Shown here: one piece after another, positions 8,058-56,430 of the stretch
How the letters are laid out: every line of letters starts with the position of its first letter
Position numbering within the stretch: the stretch's first letter is position 1
From: Capniomyces stellatus
Taxonomy: Eukaryota > Kickxellomycota > Harpellomycetes > Harpellales > Legeriomycetaceae
NCBI GenBank assembly: GCA_001661515.1
Contig: LUVW01000031.1
Coordinates: forward strand, 186,001 to 250,000
Direction of reading: 5' to 3'
DNA: 64,000 nt
The notes under the pieces: generated by a model
Told to the model about the DNA's origin: nothing
The model's database searches: none
What the model saw: the letters and a program-made list of their open reading frames with translations, nothing else
Position numbers and translations under genes: made by a program

Positions 8058-10110
8058 TGTTCTATTTCTTCTTTAATATTTCTTTTTAGCCCGCTTTCAA
8101 ATTCTTGCTTTTCTATGCTCTTTTTTATCCAACGCTATCCTTTGCTATGATGTTACCTTTGTATCTTTGTATTCTATATCTTCAATCCAATTCAGCCAAC
8201 TCTTTGTACTCTACCTCTGTCAGCCTTGTATCGAATTCTCAACTTGATTCAGTGTTTATCTCGCCGTGTGTATTTGGATTTAAATATACTCCTTGCTTTC
8301 AATTTCTACTACAGCTCTGAGTAGACCGTTTAATTCTTTTTTTCCTTTTTGTTGTCTTGTCTAGTTTCTCGATTTCTATTAACTCTAGTCAATTAACTAT
8401 AAAACCGTTATGTGTTCCCCCTGTTTGCTATTTATTGAACTCTTTGCTTTTGCTTCCCTTTATATACCCTAGTATATCTCAAAACTTCCTTATTCTCAGT
8501 ATTCAAATCCTAATTCTAATTCAAATCTACTTTCCTTCTCTTGAATGTACTTCTTCAACTTGGTACTCTATATCTTTTTTGTTTTTAAAATTTTTTTTTT
8601 TCCCCAATTTTTTTTCTCTACAATTACTTTTCGATTCGCTTTTTTTTTACTAGCTAATTTGTTGATATTTTTTATGACATCGAGTATATAATTGGCCGAA
8701 TTCATTTTAATTCCAATTTTAATTTTTTTTTTACAACTAAAGTTAAAGTTTACTAGAATTTGTTTAAATCTGGCGAAAAATTTTCTTTTACTTTTTTTTT
8801 TTTTTTCAAATCTTATTTCGATCGGATTTTCAAAATTCCTGGCTTTATACTTGCAATTATATTCGTGTATCGGCGTTAATTTTGCAGACTTTGCAAATAT
8901 ATAAAAAAAAAATTCAATTTTCAACTCAATTATATTATCTGTATGTTTACTCTAACTGTATATTTCAATTAATTATTCATCCAAGTTGATCAACGTTTGG
9001 TTTAATATGCTCTACAGTCAGACGGTAAAATTTACTCTTGACGTACGTACTCGTTCATTCCATTTTATAATATAGCATCAAGTGCCCTAGATTCACCACT
9101 TGTATTTACTTTGATTCTATATACTTCTTGTACGCTAAATCCAACTCCCTGCAACCAGCAAATGCACCAACTGGTTGGATCTTATTATTTATATTGCAAG
9201 TACCGGTTGCACTTGCAGCCAAATTAAATCTTTGCAATTCCTAGAATTAGGATTGAAAACTGTATTGGCATTAATAAATCGAGTCTAAAGATAAAATAAA
9301 GGTGCCTTTGAAGTAAAGTCCAATGTTGAAATTGAGATACCTTTGCTGAAATTTAATGAACATTATCCAGCAACACTGTAACTTGGTCTTTATATTTGTT
9401 GAATCGATGTCATACATGTGTTACTTTGAGATACAAAAAGTACGTACGCATCCCAGCTTCACCGAGTCAATTTTTTGTAAACCTACTCTCAATCTGTTAC
9501 CAATTCACCTTCAGAAAGTACGTGGCGTGTATACTCAATATAGTATCATTAATAGCCCGAATATTGGATTTGTATCGCTTTTCAGGCCAAAGAATACCAC
9601 ATCACTTTAACTGGTGACTGTTTTTAAGGATAGTCATATCGTCATGTCATCGTACCACTATCTAAATATTACTGACAGAGTTCACTTGAATGGCCTGGTC
9701 TTTGAGTTTGTTTTATCTATTCTACCCTCACCTTACACTAAAGTAATTTAACGCCAAGCCCATAATTCGCTCATTTTTCTTGTCTTAACTTTCTTGTCAT
9801 TGTTTTGTTTTGTTTTGTTTTACTTTGTGTATTTATTTTCTGGGTTTTGGGGGCGAGAGTTTGGATGGGTCATGATAGCATGACCTTTTTTTCTTTCTTT
9901 GGTTACGCTTTGGGGATCCAAGTTCCAGTTACACCCATACATTAATTTATCAGAACCACAAAATCCCAATCTGTATTCGTTTTCCTACTAGACAAATGCT
10001 TTTTTGAAAAGATGGAGTGTGTTTGTGAAACTTTTTCTTCTTATAACATTTGCTGTTGAGCCTTTTTTTTAAAAAATATATATACAAAAGTTTGGATGCT
10101 GTTGAGCTTT

Positions 10111-10158
10111 TTTTTTTTTTTTTTNNNNNNNNNTTTTTTTTTTTTTTTTTTGGTTTAT
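10111..10158. other. Poly-T tract with nine undetermined bases (N)
   Basis: A long T homopolymer is interrupted by nine N at about 10125-10133. This looks like an unresolved homopolymer or small assembly join, so the true length and sequence at this point are unknown. Confidence 0.9.
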
Positions 10159-13394: not shown

Positions 13395-16300
13395 ATGAAG
13401 CCGGAGCTATCCATTGAGCTTGATAGCGACGAGGTGTTCATTTCTAAAAAGGGGAGCAATAAAAACAACGCACATTTCAATTATGAATACAACGCTGTTA
13501 CGGGCCAAGTAAAGGTCAATGTATTGGTAGCAACCAAGGCCAAGACGTTGACAATCGAGTTTAGGGGTGTGGAAGTACTGCCTTCCAAAAAGAATGCCGA
13601 CGCACAACCCCAGTTTAGTGATAAAAGCACCATTTATGCAAAAACGTCGCTGTTTGGATACCTGCTGACCGAGGAGGAGCAGTTGGTTAACTTGGAACCT
13701 GGAGAACACATGTTCCCCTTCAACCTGTCTATTCCGCCCAACATTACTCCAACAGCCTCAACAAAGATAGGGTCTATTAGCTATAAATTGAGGGTGAAGT
13801 TTGAGCAGCAAGACACAGCAAGAAACGCCGTGTGCGAAAAAGATATAAGCGTGGTTAACGCTCCCAGCGAATATAAAAAGGGTTCGTTGGGAAATCCAAT
13901 TGGACAGAGTAAGATGCAGAACACTCATGAAAGCAGCGGCCTGACATCGATGATTGGCACAGAGGTCGGCCCGAATAAAGGATCACCTATTAACTTGGAG
14001 TTGAAGATACCAGAGCTGGCTAGAATACGAGTCAGCGGTAAAAACAGCACATTCAATGAGGGCGACTCGGTTGATTTAAAAGTGATTGCTGCCACCGCGT
14101 TTCCGCATCTAGCATCACTGCGCATCTTGGTTTTGTTGAAGGAATATACCACATGCATAATGGCTGTTTCGTCAAACAGTCTAGTGGGTGTTGGTAGCAA
14201 CGACATGAAAACAATACATTCGAAAAGAACTATCTGGGAGAAATCAATACATGTTCTCAGCTCAAACTCAGAGGACCCAAACGGTGCAAACGGAAATAAA
14301 ACTAAAGACGAAAACAAACAGAAGAATAACATAAGATGTAACCCTAGCAATATAGAGTACTCTAGCGCTGAAAAAAATAAAAGGATAAGCACGGTTGTTG
14401 ACAAAAGTTCGGCCAAAAATATGAATCAACTAGTCAAGAAAAGCAACAGCGTTAACTTTCCTATTGAATTGGGCATGGATGCAAACAATGCGTATAACAA
14501 AATGCTTGATGCTAACAAACAAGACAATCTGAATCTGTCTAGCAGTAATACGGCTATAAACATGGGCGGAAGTGTGGCATCAAACAATCCAATGAGCATT
14601 GGCCTGGGAAGGGAAAAGGGGTCTACAAGTTTAGAAACAGTTACCAGCAAACATCTCAATATTGAAACAGACGAAAATAACAAAGCTGTTAACGAAACAG
14701 GCGGGAATAGCAAGATTGTAGATGGAACAGAAACAGTGAAAAGCACAGAGGCTCGTTGCCAAAACCAAACAAAAGATAGCAAGAGCGAACCTAATAAGTC
14801 CAAGCTTGCTGGAAAGTCGATAAGGTTGAACTGGAAGAGCAAAAGGGACGAAAGCAGGGCAGAGACCAGACTAGTTGAAATAATCCCCCTAGTTTCGGGG
14901 AAAAAAGTAAATTATGACATATCATCGCCCAACATAAACGTTGAGCACCATTTGATAGTGTACGTAGAGGCAACCAGGCTAGGATTTCAGAACAGTGATA
15001 TGAGCAGCGATAAGCTGGACAGTGAAAAGATAAGCAGCAGCTCTGAAACCACAAGCGTGTTGAAAGCGTCCAAGTCCAAACGAATTTTGATTATTCCAAA
15101 ATGGAGAATAAAGAACCATAAATTTTTGGAAAAGCAGAACCAAGTTCTAAGCCCAAGCCAAAACCAGAGCCATAATACAGCACAAGATCAAAACAACAAC
15201 CACAAACATAGCGTATACCAATACCAGGGCCAATACCAGAACCAGAATCTAAACCAAAGCCAGAGTCTAAACCAGTTTGTTGTAAGAAAATCGGCAGAAT
15301 ATAGAAAAAACTCGTCAAAAAGTTCAGAGTACACTACCAAGGCCAATTTGTTCTCGAAGGTTAGCAACGATAGTGATAGCTCGTTGGACATCTTTCCCAG
15401 CCAAACCGAAGTGGCACAGAAGGACCTTAAGCTAAGGAATGGCTCTGTTTCTAACCCATCAAAGGGCTCAGTCTCGAGTATAGAGTACTTTAGGCACAGC
15501 AGCGACTCGTACCAAAGGAGCCACAACTCGAGTATTCTGTACCGCAGTGGGTCAAAGCACTCTTCGGTTAAAAAGGATGACTTGAGTTTAACCAAGATAA
15601 AGGAAGCAGTAGTACCGGACAGCATGTCTCACTTATTGTACAACGAGGACCAGGTTCAGAAAAAAGGTTTAACTGAGGTGGATGAGTACAATCGATTGAG
15701 CTTCACTATTCCCGAGCCCTCAGCAATTGGGGGAGCGGGAAACACTTTGCCAGGGTACTACAGAGGTGACCTATCGATGTATTTTTTGGGCGCAAACAAC
15801 AGGGCGGCTAACAGGAGCGGCAATTTTGGCAGCTACAACAAGTACATGAGGACAAACAAGAGCAGCAGAATAGCGCTGGATTCGAGGTTGCAAAACCTGA
15901 CGAAAAAAAGAAGCGATGCGTTTTTTTCATCTCTAGAGTCAACACTGGAGCCAGAGCATATCTTGCACAGAACAAGCAGCGCGCAGTCGATATCGAGCTC
16001 CGCATATACTGGTCGATCTGCAGCAAAAAGCACAAACTACAGCGCCAAACCACAAAATACAACGACCAAAGAAGAATATGTGTCTAGCAATAGCAATCAC
16101 GAAAGCATGTTCAGAAGTTCAACAATAAAAAACAGAAGCTTCGAGTCAAATGGAGCACCCAAGTTTACAAGATGGTACCCGGAGGAGCACAAAGTAAGAA
16201 AACTCGAAGGCGATGGCAGAAATGGCTCAAATCCAGGAAAAATCAAATCAAAGATAGTAAAAGAGCAGATCAGGCAGAGCTACTTGGACGGTATGGCATT

Positions 16301-17429
16301 TTTAAGTGAGAGGACAAAGATGGATAGGCCAGAGCTACCTGCAAAGAACGAGAGTCAGAAGTCGTTCTCTAAAAGCGGGGGCTCTGTTGACCCTTCAAGG
16401 ATTATTATTAAAAGATCGATCAGTCTACTCAACAAACAGCACATACCAAACAGAAAAAAGTCCAAAGACAATCTGCTAAAAATAAAAGAGAGAGATCCGG
16501 TGTTTGATCCTGGCATGTTTGATTCGGTTCTGAACAAATCGAACGAGTATAGCGAGAATTGCAAGAGGGAAAGCCTACTGAAACCGCTACCAGCTACTTT
16601 AAAGAGTGAAAAAGTCTTGCCGAAGGTTCCAGACCTGATCGAGTTCTTTGAACTATCCGAGATCAAGGAGCTTGACACAATAAATGGCTACAACAAGTCT
16701 AGGATCTACGCTGATCTTAAAGAGCTTGACGAAATGAACGAGTTCCGGAACTCAATGACCTATGGCGGAATAAAAAACGAGTCAGGCACGTTTAACGAGT
16801 TTATAACTGAGTCCAGATCAGATCTAAAAGACTCCGAGTCAGACACATCGCAAAGACTTGCTAAAAACAAACCGGTTTCTGCTGGGCTGTTTGATTTGAG
16901 GCGCTCTGATTGGGACCTGGGCCTGATTCCTGACCAAATCGACAAAAAACCAAACGTCAATGTCCTCGAGTACGTTGAAACCGCTGAAATTGAGTCAATA
17001 AGCCAAAGTACTCACTCGGAACTTAATAAAGTGGTGTATCTTGATGATAAAAACAAAAACAAGCCGGAAAGCTGCTACAGAACCATCCATATCAAGCCTT
17101 CGCTAACTTCCATCTTTTCTGCCTGCTCGTCCACCAGCACATACGTGTTTATTGATAACAACAACATTCCCTTTTACAAGATTGGAAAATGCCAATCCCC
17201 ATTCCAACTTATCTCTGCCAAAAACCTTCTTGTCTTTTTTAACAGTCTGTTCAACAAGTTACCCTCCAAGTCCTCACTGAAAGATCTCGAAAAGAACTAC
17301 TTGAGCTTTGTTTTCGATCTGGAATCCCCTGCTGATGACGCTATCAACCGTCGCCTGTCACTTTTAGGCGGCGAGTACCTAATTATCAAAAAAACAAACC
17401 AAGAACTCAACAACATGGTAATGGCCTAA
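13395..17429 (+). CDS. Large arrestin-fold (alpha-arrestin-like) protein, 1344 aa, with split C-lobe and long disordered tail
   Basis: The N-terminal ~155 residues resemble an arrestin N-lobe: a TIEFRGVEV strand, LEPGEHMFPFNLSIPPNITP (the fungal arrestin pattern of an L..G.h.FPF core followed by P..PTS) and a GSISYKLRVKF strand. Residues ~200-275 look like the start of the C-lobe. The last C-lobe strands appear only at ~488-570, ending in SKRILIIPKWRI, so ~210 low-complexity residues rich in Asn, Ser and Lys are inserted within the C-lobe. The tail to 1344 is Ser/Lys/Asn-rich with a Q/N patch (~600-640), and the last ~110 residues look folded. Fungal alpha-arrestins usually bring Rsp5-type ubiquitin ligases to plasma-membrane transporters. 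I did not find a clear PPxY motif, so the ligase-adaptor role is uncertain. The ATG is preceded by a purine-rich leader, and the frame needs no intron. Confidence 0.75.
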   Translation: MKPELSIELDSDEVFISKKGSNKNNAHFNYEYNAVTGQVKVNVLVATKAKTLTIEFRGVEVLPSKKNADAQPQFSDKSTIYAKTSLFGYLLTEEEQLVNLEPGEHMFPFNLSIPPNITPTASTKIGSISYKLRVKFEQQDTARNAVCEKDISVVNAPSEYKKGSLGNPIGQSKMQNTHESSGLTSMIGTEVGPNKGSPINLELKIPELARIRVSGKNSTFNEGDSVDLKVIAATAFPHLASLRILVLLKEYTTCIMAVSSNSLVGVGSNDMKTIHSKRTIWEKSIHVLSSNSEDPNGANGNKTKDENKQKNNIRCNPSNIEYSSAEKNKRISTVVDKSSAKNMNQLVKKSNSVNFPIELGMDANNAYNKMLDANKQDNLNLSSSNTAINMGGSVASNNPMSIGLGREKGSTSLETVTSKHLNIETDENNKAVNETGGNSKIVDGTETVKSTEARCQNQTKDSKSEPNKSKLAGKSIRLNWKSKRDESRAETRLVEIIPLVSGKKVNYDISSPNINVEHHLIVYVEATRLGFQNSDMSSDKLDSEKISSSSETTSVLKASKSKRILIIPKWRIKNHKFLEKQNQVLSPSQNQSHNTAQDQNNNHKHSVYQYQGQYQNQNLNQSQSLNQFVVRKSAEYRKNSSKSSEYTTKANLFSKVSNDSDSSLDIFPSQTEVAQKDLKLRNGSVSNPSKGSVSSIEYFRHSSDSYQRSHNSSILYRSGSKHSSVKKDDLSLTKIKEAVVPDSMSHLLYNEDQVQKKGLTEVDEYNRLSFTIPEPSAIGGAGNTLPGYYRGDLSMYFLGANNRAANRSGNFGSYNKYMRTNKSSRIALDSRLQNLTKKRSDAFFSSLESTLEPEHILHRTSSAQSISSSAYTGRSAAKSTNYSAKPQNTTTKEEYVSSNSNHESMFRSSTIKNRSFESNGAPKFTRWYPEEHKVRKLEGDGRNGSNPGKIKSKIVKEQIRQSYLDGMAFLSERTKMDRPELPAKNESQKSFSKSGGSVDPSRIIIKRSISLLNKQHIPNRKKSKDNLLKIKERDPVFDPGMFDSVLNKSNEYSENCKRESLLKPLPATLKSEKVLPKVPDLIEFFELSEIKELDTINGYNKSRIYADLKELDEMNEFRNSMTYGGIKNESGTFNEFITESRSDLKDSESDTSQRLAKNKPVSAGLFDLRRSDWDLGLIPDQIDKKPNVNVLEYVETAEIESISQSTHSELNKVVYLDDKNKNKPESCYRTIHIKPSLTSIFSACSSTSTYVFIDNNNIPFYKIGKCQSPFQLISAKNLLVFFNSLFNKLPSKSSLKDLEKNYLSFVFDLESPADDAINRRLSLLGGEYLIIKKTNQELNNMVMA

Positions 17430-54546: not shown

Positions 54547-56430
54547 TTAACTCTCATCAATAGAGTTATATGACAGCTTTGCTACCTTTGCCCTGTACAT
54601 TGATTTAGGCATTAGATTCATTGTGACCACCTTGTAAGGGTAATTGGTTTTGGCAGGTGCAGTGTTGATTATTGGAGCTACAGACTGAGGCCCGTTATTT
54701 AAATACTGGTCATTTTCATAATCAGAAATTGTGTTGTAAGCCATTTCTTTATACCTCCCATTTACTGCGCTAGGCTCGGGTGCTATGGAATAAACCGCGT
54801 CATTTTGTACATACGAATCATCAGGGTAGGAGCTGTCAAAGTATTCATCGGTAAATGTATCTGTAGGCTGTGTGTAAGCGTAATACGGTTCAGTACTATC
54901 GCAATCGGTTTCAATAGTACTGGTTATTTCGCTTGGCATTGGTGACTCGGTTTCACAATCTGTTTCAATAGTAACTGTTACATCGCTTGTAATAGGTGGT
55001 TCAGTCTCACAATCAGTTTCAATAGTAATTGTCACTTCACTTGGAATTGGTGGTTCAGTCTCACACTCAGTCTCACAATCAGTTTCGATGGTCATGGTAG
55101 TGATTATAGTTGTCAGCGGCTCTGTTTCGCAATCAGTTTCAATAGTAATTGTCACTTCACTTGGCATTGGTGGTTCAGTCTCACAGTCAGTTTCGATAGT
55201 AATTGTAGTAACTGTAGTTGATGTTGGCTCTGTTTCGCAATCAGTTTCAATAGTAATTGTCACTTCACTTGGCATTGGTGGTTCAGTCTCACAGTCAGTT
55301 TCGATAGTAATTGTAGTAACTGTAGTTGATGTTCCGAGACAAAGCGTTAGTCAAAGTTATCATTAACAGTGAAGTGAACCGTAACCACCAAGTCAGAGTG
55401 TCAGTCAAAGCTATCATTAACATCATTGACATCAACTACAACCGAGACAAAGCGTTAGTCAAAGTTATCATTAACAGTGAAGTGAACCCATTGGTGGTTC
55501 AGTCTCACAGTCAGTTTCGATAGTAATTGTAGTAACTGTAGTTGATGTTGGCTCTGTTTCGCAATCAGTTTCAATAGTAATTGTCACTTCACTTGGCATT
55601 GGTGGTTCAGTCTCACAGTCAGTTTCGATAGTAATTGTAGTAACTGTAGTTGATGTTGGCTCTGTTTCGCAATCAGTTTCAATAGTAATTGTCACTTCAC
55701 TTGGTATTGGTGGCTCGGGCTCGCAATAAGTTTCAACTGAAGTTTTTACAACTGTTCTTAAAAAACATTTATGAGAACCATCACTATGTGTACAGCTGGT
55801 CGGGTCGCTTGTATACTCGTTATTGTAATTTCTGTAGTGCACAGCCTCTTCGTAGTTGTTGTGGTTGTAGCCATTATAATGCTCAGCATCCAAATAGTAA
55901 TCCTGAGGCACCTCGTTGGAGCGATCGTTGTCATTGGACCAAGAATTGCGCTTATTTAGCCCATTGAACTTGCACTTGATTCGCTCATAATTGTCCAATT
56001 TACAGCTTATGCCCATTGGGCACTTGTCTGCTGCCCAGTTATCGTACAGGTCTCCTTTATAGCACATAATTACATTCTCAACTATGCGATCGGCTTTGTC
56101 TTTGATACAAATGAGTTTGCGGTCTATGCAATTGTTAGAGTCGCAGTATTCACTACCTTCTTTTATAGTCTCTAAGCATTGCATGCCGTTGAATTTTACT
56201 ATATTCCCACTCACATGCCCAGAATCTCTAGAACCATCGTAACTGTTGTTTAAATGGTTTGTAAATACTGGGTATCTCCTAAATGGCTTTTGTTTCCTAG
56301 TATATCTATTGGGGTTATATCTGCTGGAACTTGCACCCTGTGCAAGTATTAATGTTGCAGCTATGAGATAAAACACGTTTATATAGGTCCTTTTGGCAAG
56401 TAGGCGGCAGTTGATATATAGAGTTCCCAT
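54547..56430 (-). CDS. Secreted repetitive Cys/Thr/Glu-rich surface protein; frame broken in the given sequence by an anomalous 155-bp block
   Basis: The ATG at 56428-56430 starts a signal-peptide-like N-terminus (VFYLIAATLILAQGAS). A Cys-rich segment follows at ~70-150 (MQCLETI, EYCDSNNCID, LICIKDK, VIMCYKGDLYDNW, KCPMGISCKL), then an Asn/Tyr/His-rich linker. From ~235 to 505 there are tandem 18-residue repeats around TITIETDCETEP, encoded by a 108-bp double unit. The C-terminus is Tyr/Asp/Pro-rich. As written, translation stops inside the block 55334-55488 (TAA near 55471) and an in-frame open stretch resumes at 55275 down to 54547. Start and end are in the same frame, and the full span is 1884 nt (628 codons). 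I do not recognise the family; a spore-wall, adhesin or other extracellular structural role is plausible from composition only. Confidence 0.8.
55118..55765. repeat. 108-bp tandem coding repeat array, six units
   Basis: Units begin with GGCTCTGTTTCGCAATCAG at 55118, 55226, 55334 (as complement), 55442 (as complement for 47 bases), 55550 and 55658. The units at 55226 and 55550 are identical over 108 bases. Each encodes two 18-residue repeats on the minus strand. More diverged repeats continue leftward to about 54900. Confidence 0.9.
55334..55488. other. Block that is the unreversed complement of the surrounding repeat
   Basis: Base by base, in the same left-to-right order, every base here is the Watson-Crick partner of the base expected from the 108-bp array (checked over all 155 positions against the identical units at 55226 and 55550). 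Both edges are sharp and the array phase is preserved across the block. It is not a reverse complement. Confidence 0.93.

Follow-up and report, generated by a model that had tools for sequence, protein, structure and literature searches.

Two complement-only blocks in repeats of one Capniomyces stellatus contig and their probable origin in an assembly error

An interrupted gene and its tandem array

The stretch of DNA analysed here (the window, 64,000 bases) corresponds to C25:186001-250000 of the Capniomyces stellatus assembly, which comprises 24,510,316 bases in 59 contigs; contig C25 itself has 285,220 bases. On the minus strand of the window lies a gene in two parts. The upstream part (55489..56430) runs for 314 codons from an ATG and is stop-free up to the block that interrupts it, while the downstream part (54547..55332) continues in the same frame for 262 codons, of which the last is the only stop; in the list of open reading frames this part appears as 54547-55275, starting at its first inner ATG. 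The gene is predicted to encode a secreted-type protein of no known family; its translation opens with a hydrophobic segment and also shows a part with Cys residues and acidic Thr/Glu/Cys repeats. Neither fragment matched a Pfam family at E ≤ 0.001 or scored above the Pfam cut-off at E ≤ 10, and no homologue of the upstream fragment was found at E ≤ 0.001 among 5,365 candidates. The function of the encoded protein has no bearing on the block described below. The window also encodes a dihydroorotase whose closest counterparts among the matches listed are those of Furculomyces boomerangus and Smittium megazygosporum (61% each); proteins of other Smittium, Martensiomyces and Coemansia species come next, and no listed match is identical. 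A nine-base run of N at 10125-10133, within a long run of T, is a leftover assembly gap.

The interrupted gene holds a 108-bp tandem array at 55118..55704 (plus strand; 587 bp, or five units plus 47 bases). A sequence-only reading of the locus had called this array perfect, which is true within these limits apart from a block lying exactly at the centre; the repeats left of 55118, however, have diverged. Mismatches at period 108 outside the block end at 55117 and begin again past 55704. On either side of the block stand two normal 108-bp units, forming arms of 216 bases each, the left at 55118..55333 and the right at 55489..55704 (both plus strand), that connect the block to the two edges of the array. 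Searched against the genome, the right arm gave a 100% match only at itself, the remaining matches all falling inside the same locus, and the array and the upstream gene fragment match nothing elsewhere in the genome. There is no N in the array, nor does any adjoin the block. Two regularities were noticed post hoc: only 21 of 161,596 choices of start and length give arms that both consist of whole units, and only 1 of 433 placements of a 155-base block gives equal arms. Such a central position would be expected had the flanking contigs entered the array to the same depth on both sides, or had a single repeat-graph node been inserted.

A block complemented without reversal

The block itself (block 1; 55334..55488, plus strand; 155 bases, or one 108-bp unit plus 47) is complement-only: the base order of the surrounding repeat is kept and the letters are complemented, which sets it apart from a reverse complement of the repeat expected there. 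Complemented without reversal, it matches 55118-55272 and 55550-55704 at 155/155 bases each. The best ungapped matches nearby in the other orientations reach 63/155 as is, 66/155 reversed and 77/155 reverse-complemented. Both edges (55333/55334 and 55488/55489) are exact, because no base equals its own complement, and the phase and length of the array are kept across the block, with 0 mismatches at −108 and +108 over the 128 positions compared each way. The sequence-only reading had placed here an unreversed complement of one whole unit plus 47 bases, with the plus strand switching at 55334 and back at 55489 in perfect phase, and it proves right to the base. It had further argued that the block is neither a DNA inversion nor a mirror copy and had named a better fit as a true reverse complement as the result that would speak against it; on alignment, that orientation gives the 77/155 above, and both arguments stand.

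A chance origin is excluded by the length of the match. With both block regions excluded, the longest exact complement-only match elsewhere in C25 is 21 bases, and in 20 random sequences of the length and dinucleotide content of C25 the longest is 17–20 bases. Within the window, low-complexity sequence excluded, there are 50 exact complement-only matches of at least 16 bases, and the 14 longest of the 50 all pair the block with its own array. Genomic inversion, also when followed by divergence, is rejected by the comparison of 77/155 for the reverse complement with 155/155 for the complement, and a mirror repeat by the 66/155 obtained on reversal. Across C25, the longest mirror match among those listed is 19 bases.

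Read in the minus-strand frame of the gene, the 51 codons of block 1 include 15 stops as written and 0 when complemented. Counted piecewise, with the sequence left unjoined, the frame consists of 314 codons upstream, 51 in the complemented block, one across 55333/55334 and 262 downstream. The earlier claim that complementing yields a single 628-codon frame is correct in that the stops vanish and the frame is open; the length is more properly 627 codons plus a stop. A pseudogene produced by accumulated mutations was considered and rejected: the flanks are open, and all premature in-frame stops lie inside the block and are gone on complementing. We infer an intact frame in the DNA of the organism.

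A second block in the same contig

C25 was rebuilt whole and compared with itself in four orientations. The scan for other complement-only stretches that the sequence-only reading had proposed thus returned one on this contig, in a different repeat, and it is this second block that goes beyond that reading. Block 2 (C25:9982-10317, 336 bases, outside the window) is the sole further block to emerge from complement-only matching of C25 and lies in a repeat of about 3 kb whose three successive copies are 91–95% identical overall. Its unreversed complement equals 13768-14103 over the full length (336/336) and 16733-17058 over the last 326 bases (326/326). This exactness is weaker evidence than it appears, because copies 2 and 3 are in any case identical to each other for 559 bases from the start of the block-matching sequence. 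Sequence in the normal direction flanks the block on both sides. In the genome, the expected form occurs at seven places, whole or partial, and the complement-only form (query of 317 of the 336 bases) at one. Complementing the block opens a stop-free frame of 111 codons; no Pfam family was found in two open reading frames of the repeat.

Immediately before the left edge of block 2, at 9981, the copies differ (C there and in the copy on C34, A at 13767), and base 9981 may or may not belong to the block; the alignment of copies used the C25 and C34 rows, those of C57 and C38, in the opposite orientation, being left out. The right edge sits 191 bases within a run identical in all three copies, and for this reason the edges of the two blocks follow no single simple rule. 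Two contig pieces meet in the third copy at a lone unresolved N (16732); the piece to its right begins, in repeat register, 10 bases from the left edge of block 2. Blocks 1 and 2 thus occupy different repeats of one contig, about 231 kb apart, and each is exact, keeps the phase and leaves the length unaltered. C25 has nine runs of N, ranging from 1 to 7,711 bases; the longest of them and the 72-bp tandem array of 11 copies that begins straight after it lie at C25:257641-266140.

Detection and frequency of such blocks

A complement-only patch is invisible to an ordinary similarity search because only two strands are tried, and searches with the letters of either block matched only the block itself. 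An alignment-free k-mer model of C25 scores whether a sequence resembles complement-only DNA more closely than ordinary DNA; each tested stretch, with no less than 6 kb to its left and to its right, was kept out of the training. At both k=6 and k=8, block 2 ranks first among the segments of C25. Block 1 ranks eighth at k=6 and is not among the best 15 at k=8; taken as a fixed window, it falls in the top 0.4% (k=6) and 1.4% (k=8). These ranks indicate that a long block can be detected without a repeat partner and that 155 bases is near the limit. From a composition scan, 13 segments were checked for stop-free frames, namely the two blocks and 11 others; the frames singled out no further block among the 11, several of which are too short to tell.

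The complement-only survey covered the whole of C25 and reached the other 58 contigs by single-query searches only, and the blocks visible to it are those that are long or have a partner among the repeats. Naive scaling of one block (beyond block 1) per 285,220 bases would give about 86 in 24.5 Mb, a figure derived from a single event and carrying a very wide range. A genome query with 622 complement-only letters of another multicopy sequence returned no match, there being no known positive match to serve as control; the first 192 bases of that multicopy sequence occur in normal form at 16 places. The empty result suggests that the error is not present throughout the repeats. The long open reading frame of the multicopy sequence scores as a trypsin-family protein. 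C25 also contains two exact 3,985-base direct tandem copies (136821-140805 and 140708-144692; unit 3,887 bases) holding a trypsin-family open reading frame, and similar pairs with equal scores are present on C33 and C34; such copies are either recent tandem duplications or duplicated assembly.

The complement-only form of the telomere-type repeat was also searched for. As (AATCCC)4 it matched 8 times, with overlaps, at three sites hundreds of kb inside contigs of 1,002,815, 502,665 and 671,324 bases, and as (AATCCC)3 it gave 16 matches; AATCCC may also encode Asn-Pro repeats. Ordinary (TTAGGG)4 runs were found at C27:26818-26847 and C58:11152-11709, not at contig starts. The run on C58, made up of telomere-type CCCTAA repeats, is about 558 bases long and starts 11 kb from the contig start. 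A literature search for complement-only assembly patches returned no report in the portions of the papers available, which is weak evidence.

Origin of the blocks

DNA copying and joining are antiparallel, and a real inversion, duplication or conversion therefore cannot read as complement-only. A change that cellular DNA processes cannot make and recurrence at unrelated sequence in the same assembly are among the marks of an artefact. The blocks are complement-only at 155/155 and 336/336 bases, a change of which, to our knowledge, the cell is incapable, and block 2 supplies the recurrence; what would have been an isolated oddity becomes, with two cases in one contig, evidence of a recurring processing error. 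The sequence-only reading had proposed a data-handling or assembly artefact, or else a deliberate edit, and the finding of a block in a different repeat of C25 lends support to the artefact. Since two different repeats carry the same physically implausible change, a processing error is much the likeliest cause of both blocks, neither of which is a biological feature.

As a matter of arithmetic, writing the minus strand backwards gives the very string obtained by complementing the plus strand without reversal, so a single omitted operation accounts for the block. In the proposed sequence of events, the assembler would leave a gap or repeat where identical sister copies exist, a patch would be taken from an opposite-strand read or contig, and this patch would be reversed, the complement step missed, and the result written into the contig with no base changed. 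Blocks 1 and 2 both lie within repeats having identical sister copies, which is where assemblers and scaffolders leave gaps, and each block appears to be a gap patch or repeat patch. Block 1 is thus very probably an assembly artefact, a repeat patch from the opposite strand that was reversed without complementing on insertion.

A whole node of a repeat graph may instead have been miswritten, the middle pass through a 155-base node, which spans the array from entry to exit phase, being printed in complement. Block 1 does start and end at the entry and exit phases of the array, although the same edges arise if the flanking contigs reach 216 bases into it, and the right edge of block 2 coincides with no difference among the three copies; we regard this version as possible and rather unlikely. 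As that right edge fits neither the node nor the contig-reach picture, no k-mer size or program is claimed. An edit of the record after assembly, deliberate or accidental, in the form of a planted test or a hand-made patch inserted after complementing alone, would yield exactly this string. Block 2, however, lies 231 kb away, in another repeat and beyond the limits of the window; an edit confined to the window is therefore unlikely, and an edit of any kind improbable.

It is far less probable still that the blocks are real DNA, a cell process having twice produced a repeat stretch by copying or joining in parallel polarity, with no base changed. The letters match what such a process would leave, and there are two occurrences of them; against this, we know of no polymerase, ligase or recombination route that joins strands in parallel polarity, both blocks fall in repeats of the kind that defeats assemblies, and a real block 1 would disrupt a frame that is otherwise open. 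A true inversion with subsequent divergence has a negligible probability, no point in its support having been found against the 77/155 and 155/155 of the two orientations.

Implications and comparison with known systems

The error attributed here to patching makes one open frame look, at block 1, like two broken fragments, and a block of this kind would mislead gene calls as well as claims of pseudogenes or inversions. Comparison of an assembly with its own unreversed complement reveals such patches in repeats within seconds, and the k-mer test can reveal long ones that lack a partner. If the responsible program is widely used, other assemblies would carry such patches too.

Block 1 resembles a genomic inversion in that a stretch is replaced in place by the other strand with its length kept; an inversion, however, gives the reverse complement, and the block fails that comparison (77/155). 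With a mirror repeat it shares a symmetry other than that of direct or inverted repeats, but a mirror repeat reads the same backwards, whereas block 1 reversed matches at only 66/155. Closer parallels come from assembly errors. In the rhesus draft assembly, a piece of BBS1 lies in the wrong orientation and breaks the gene model (PMC3426473), as the wrongly oriented piece of a gene does here; the BBS1 fragment is apparently an ordinary reverse complement, unlike block 1, in which the base order is kept and the letters are complemented. Sites of gap closing in repeats are also known to carry assembly errors (PMC9575681). The passages of that study on gap-closing errors that were available make no mention of complement-only patches (PMC9575681), but the errors they describe are located, like the blocks in C25, in repeats, where gaps arise (PMC9575681).
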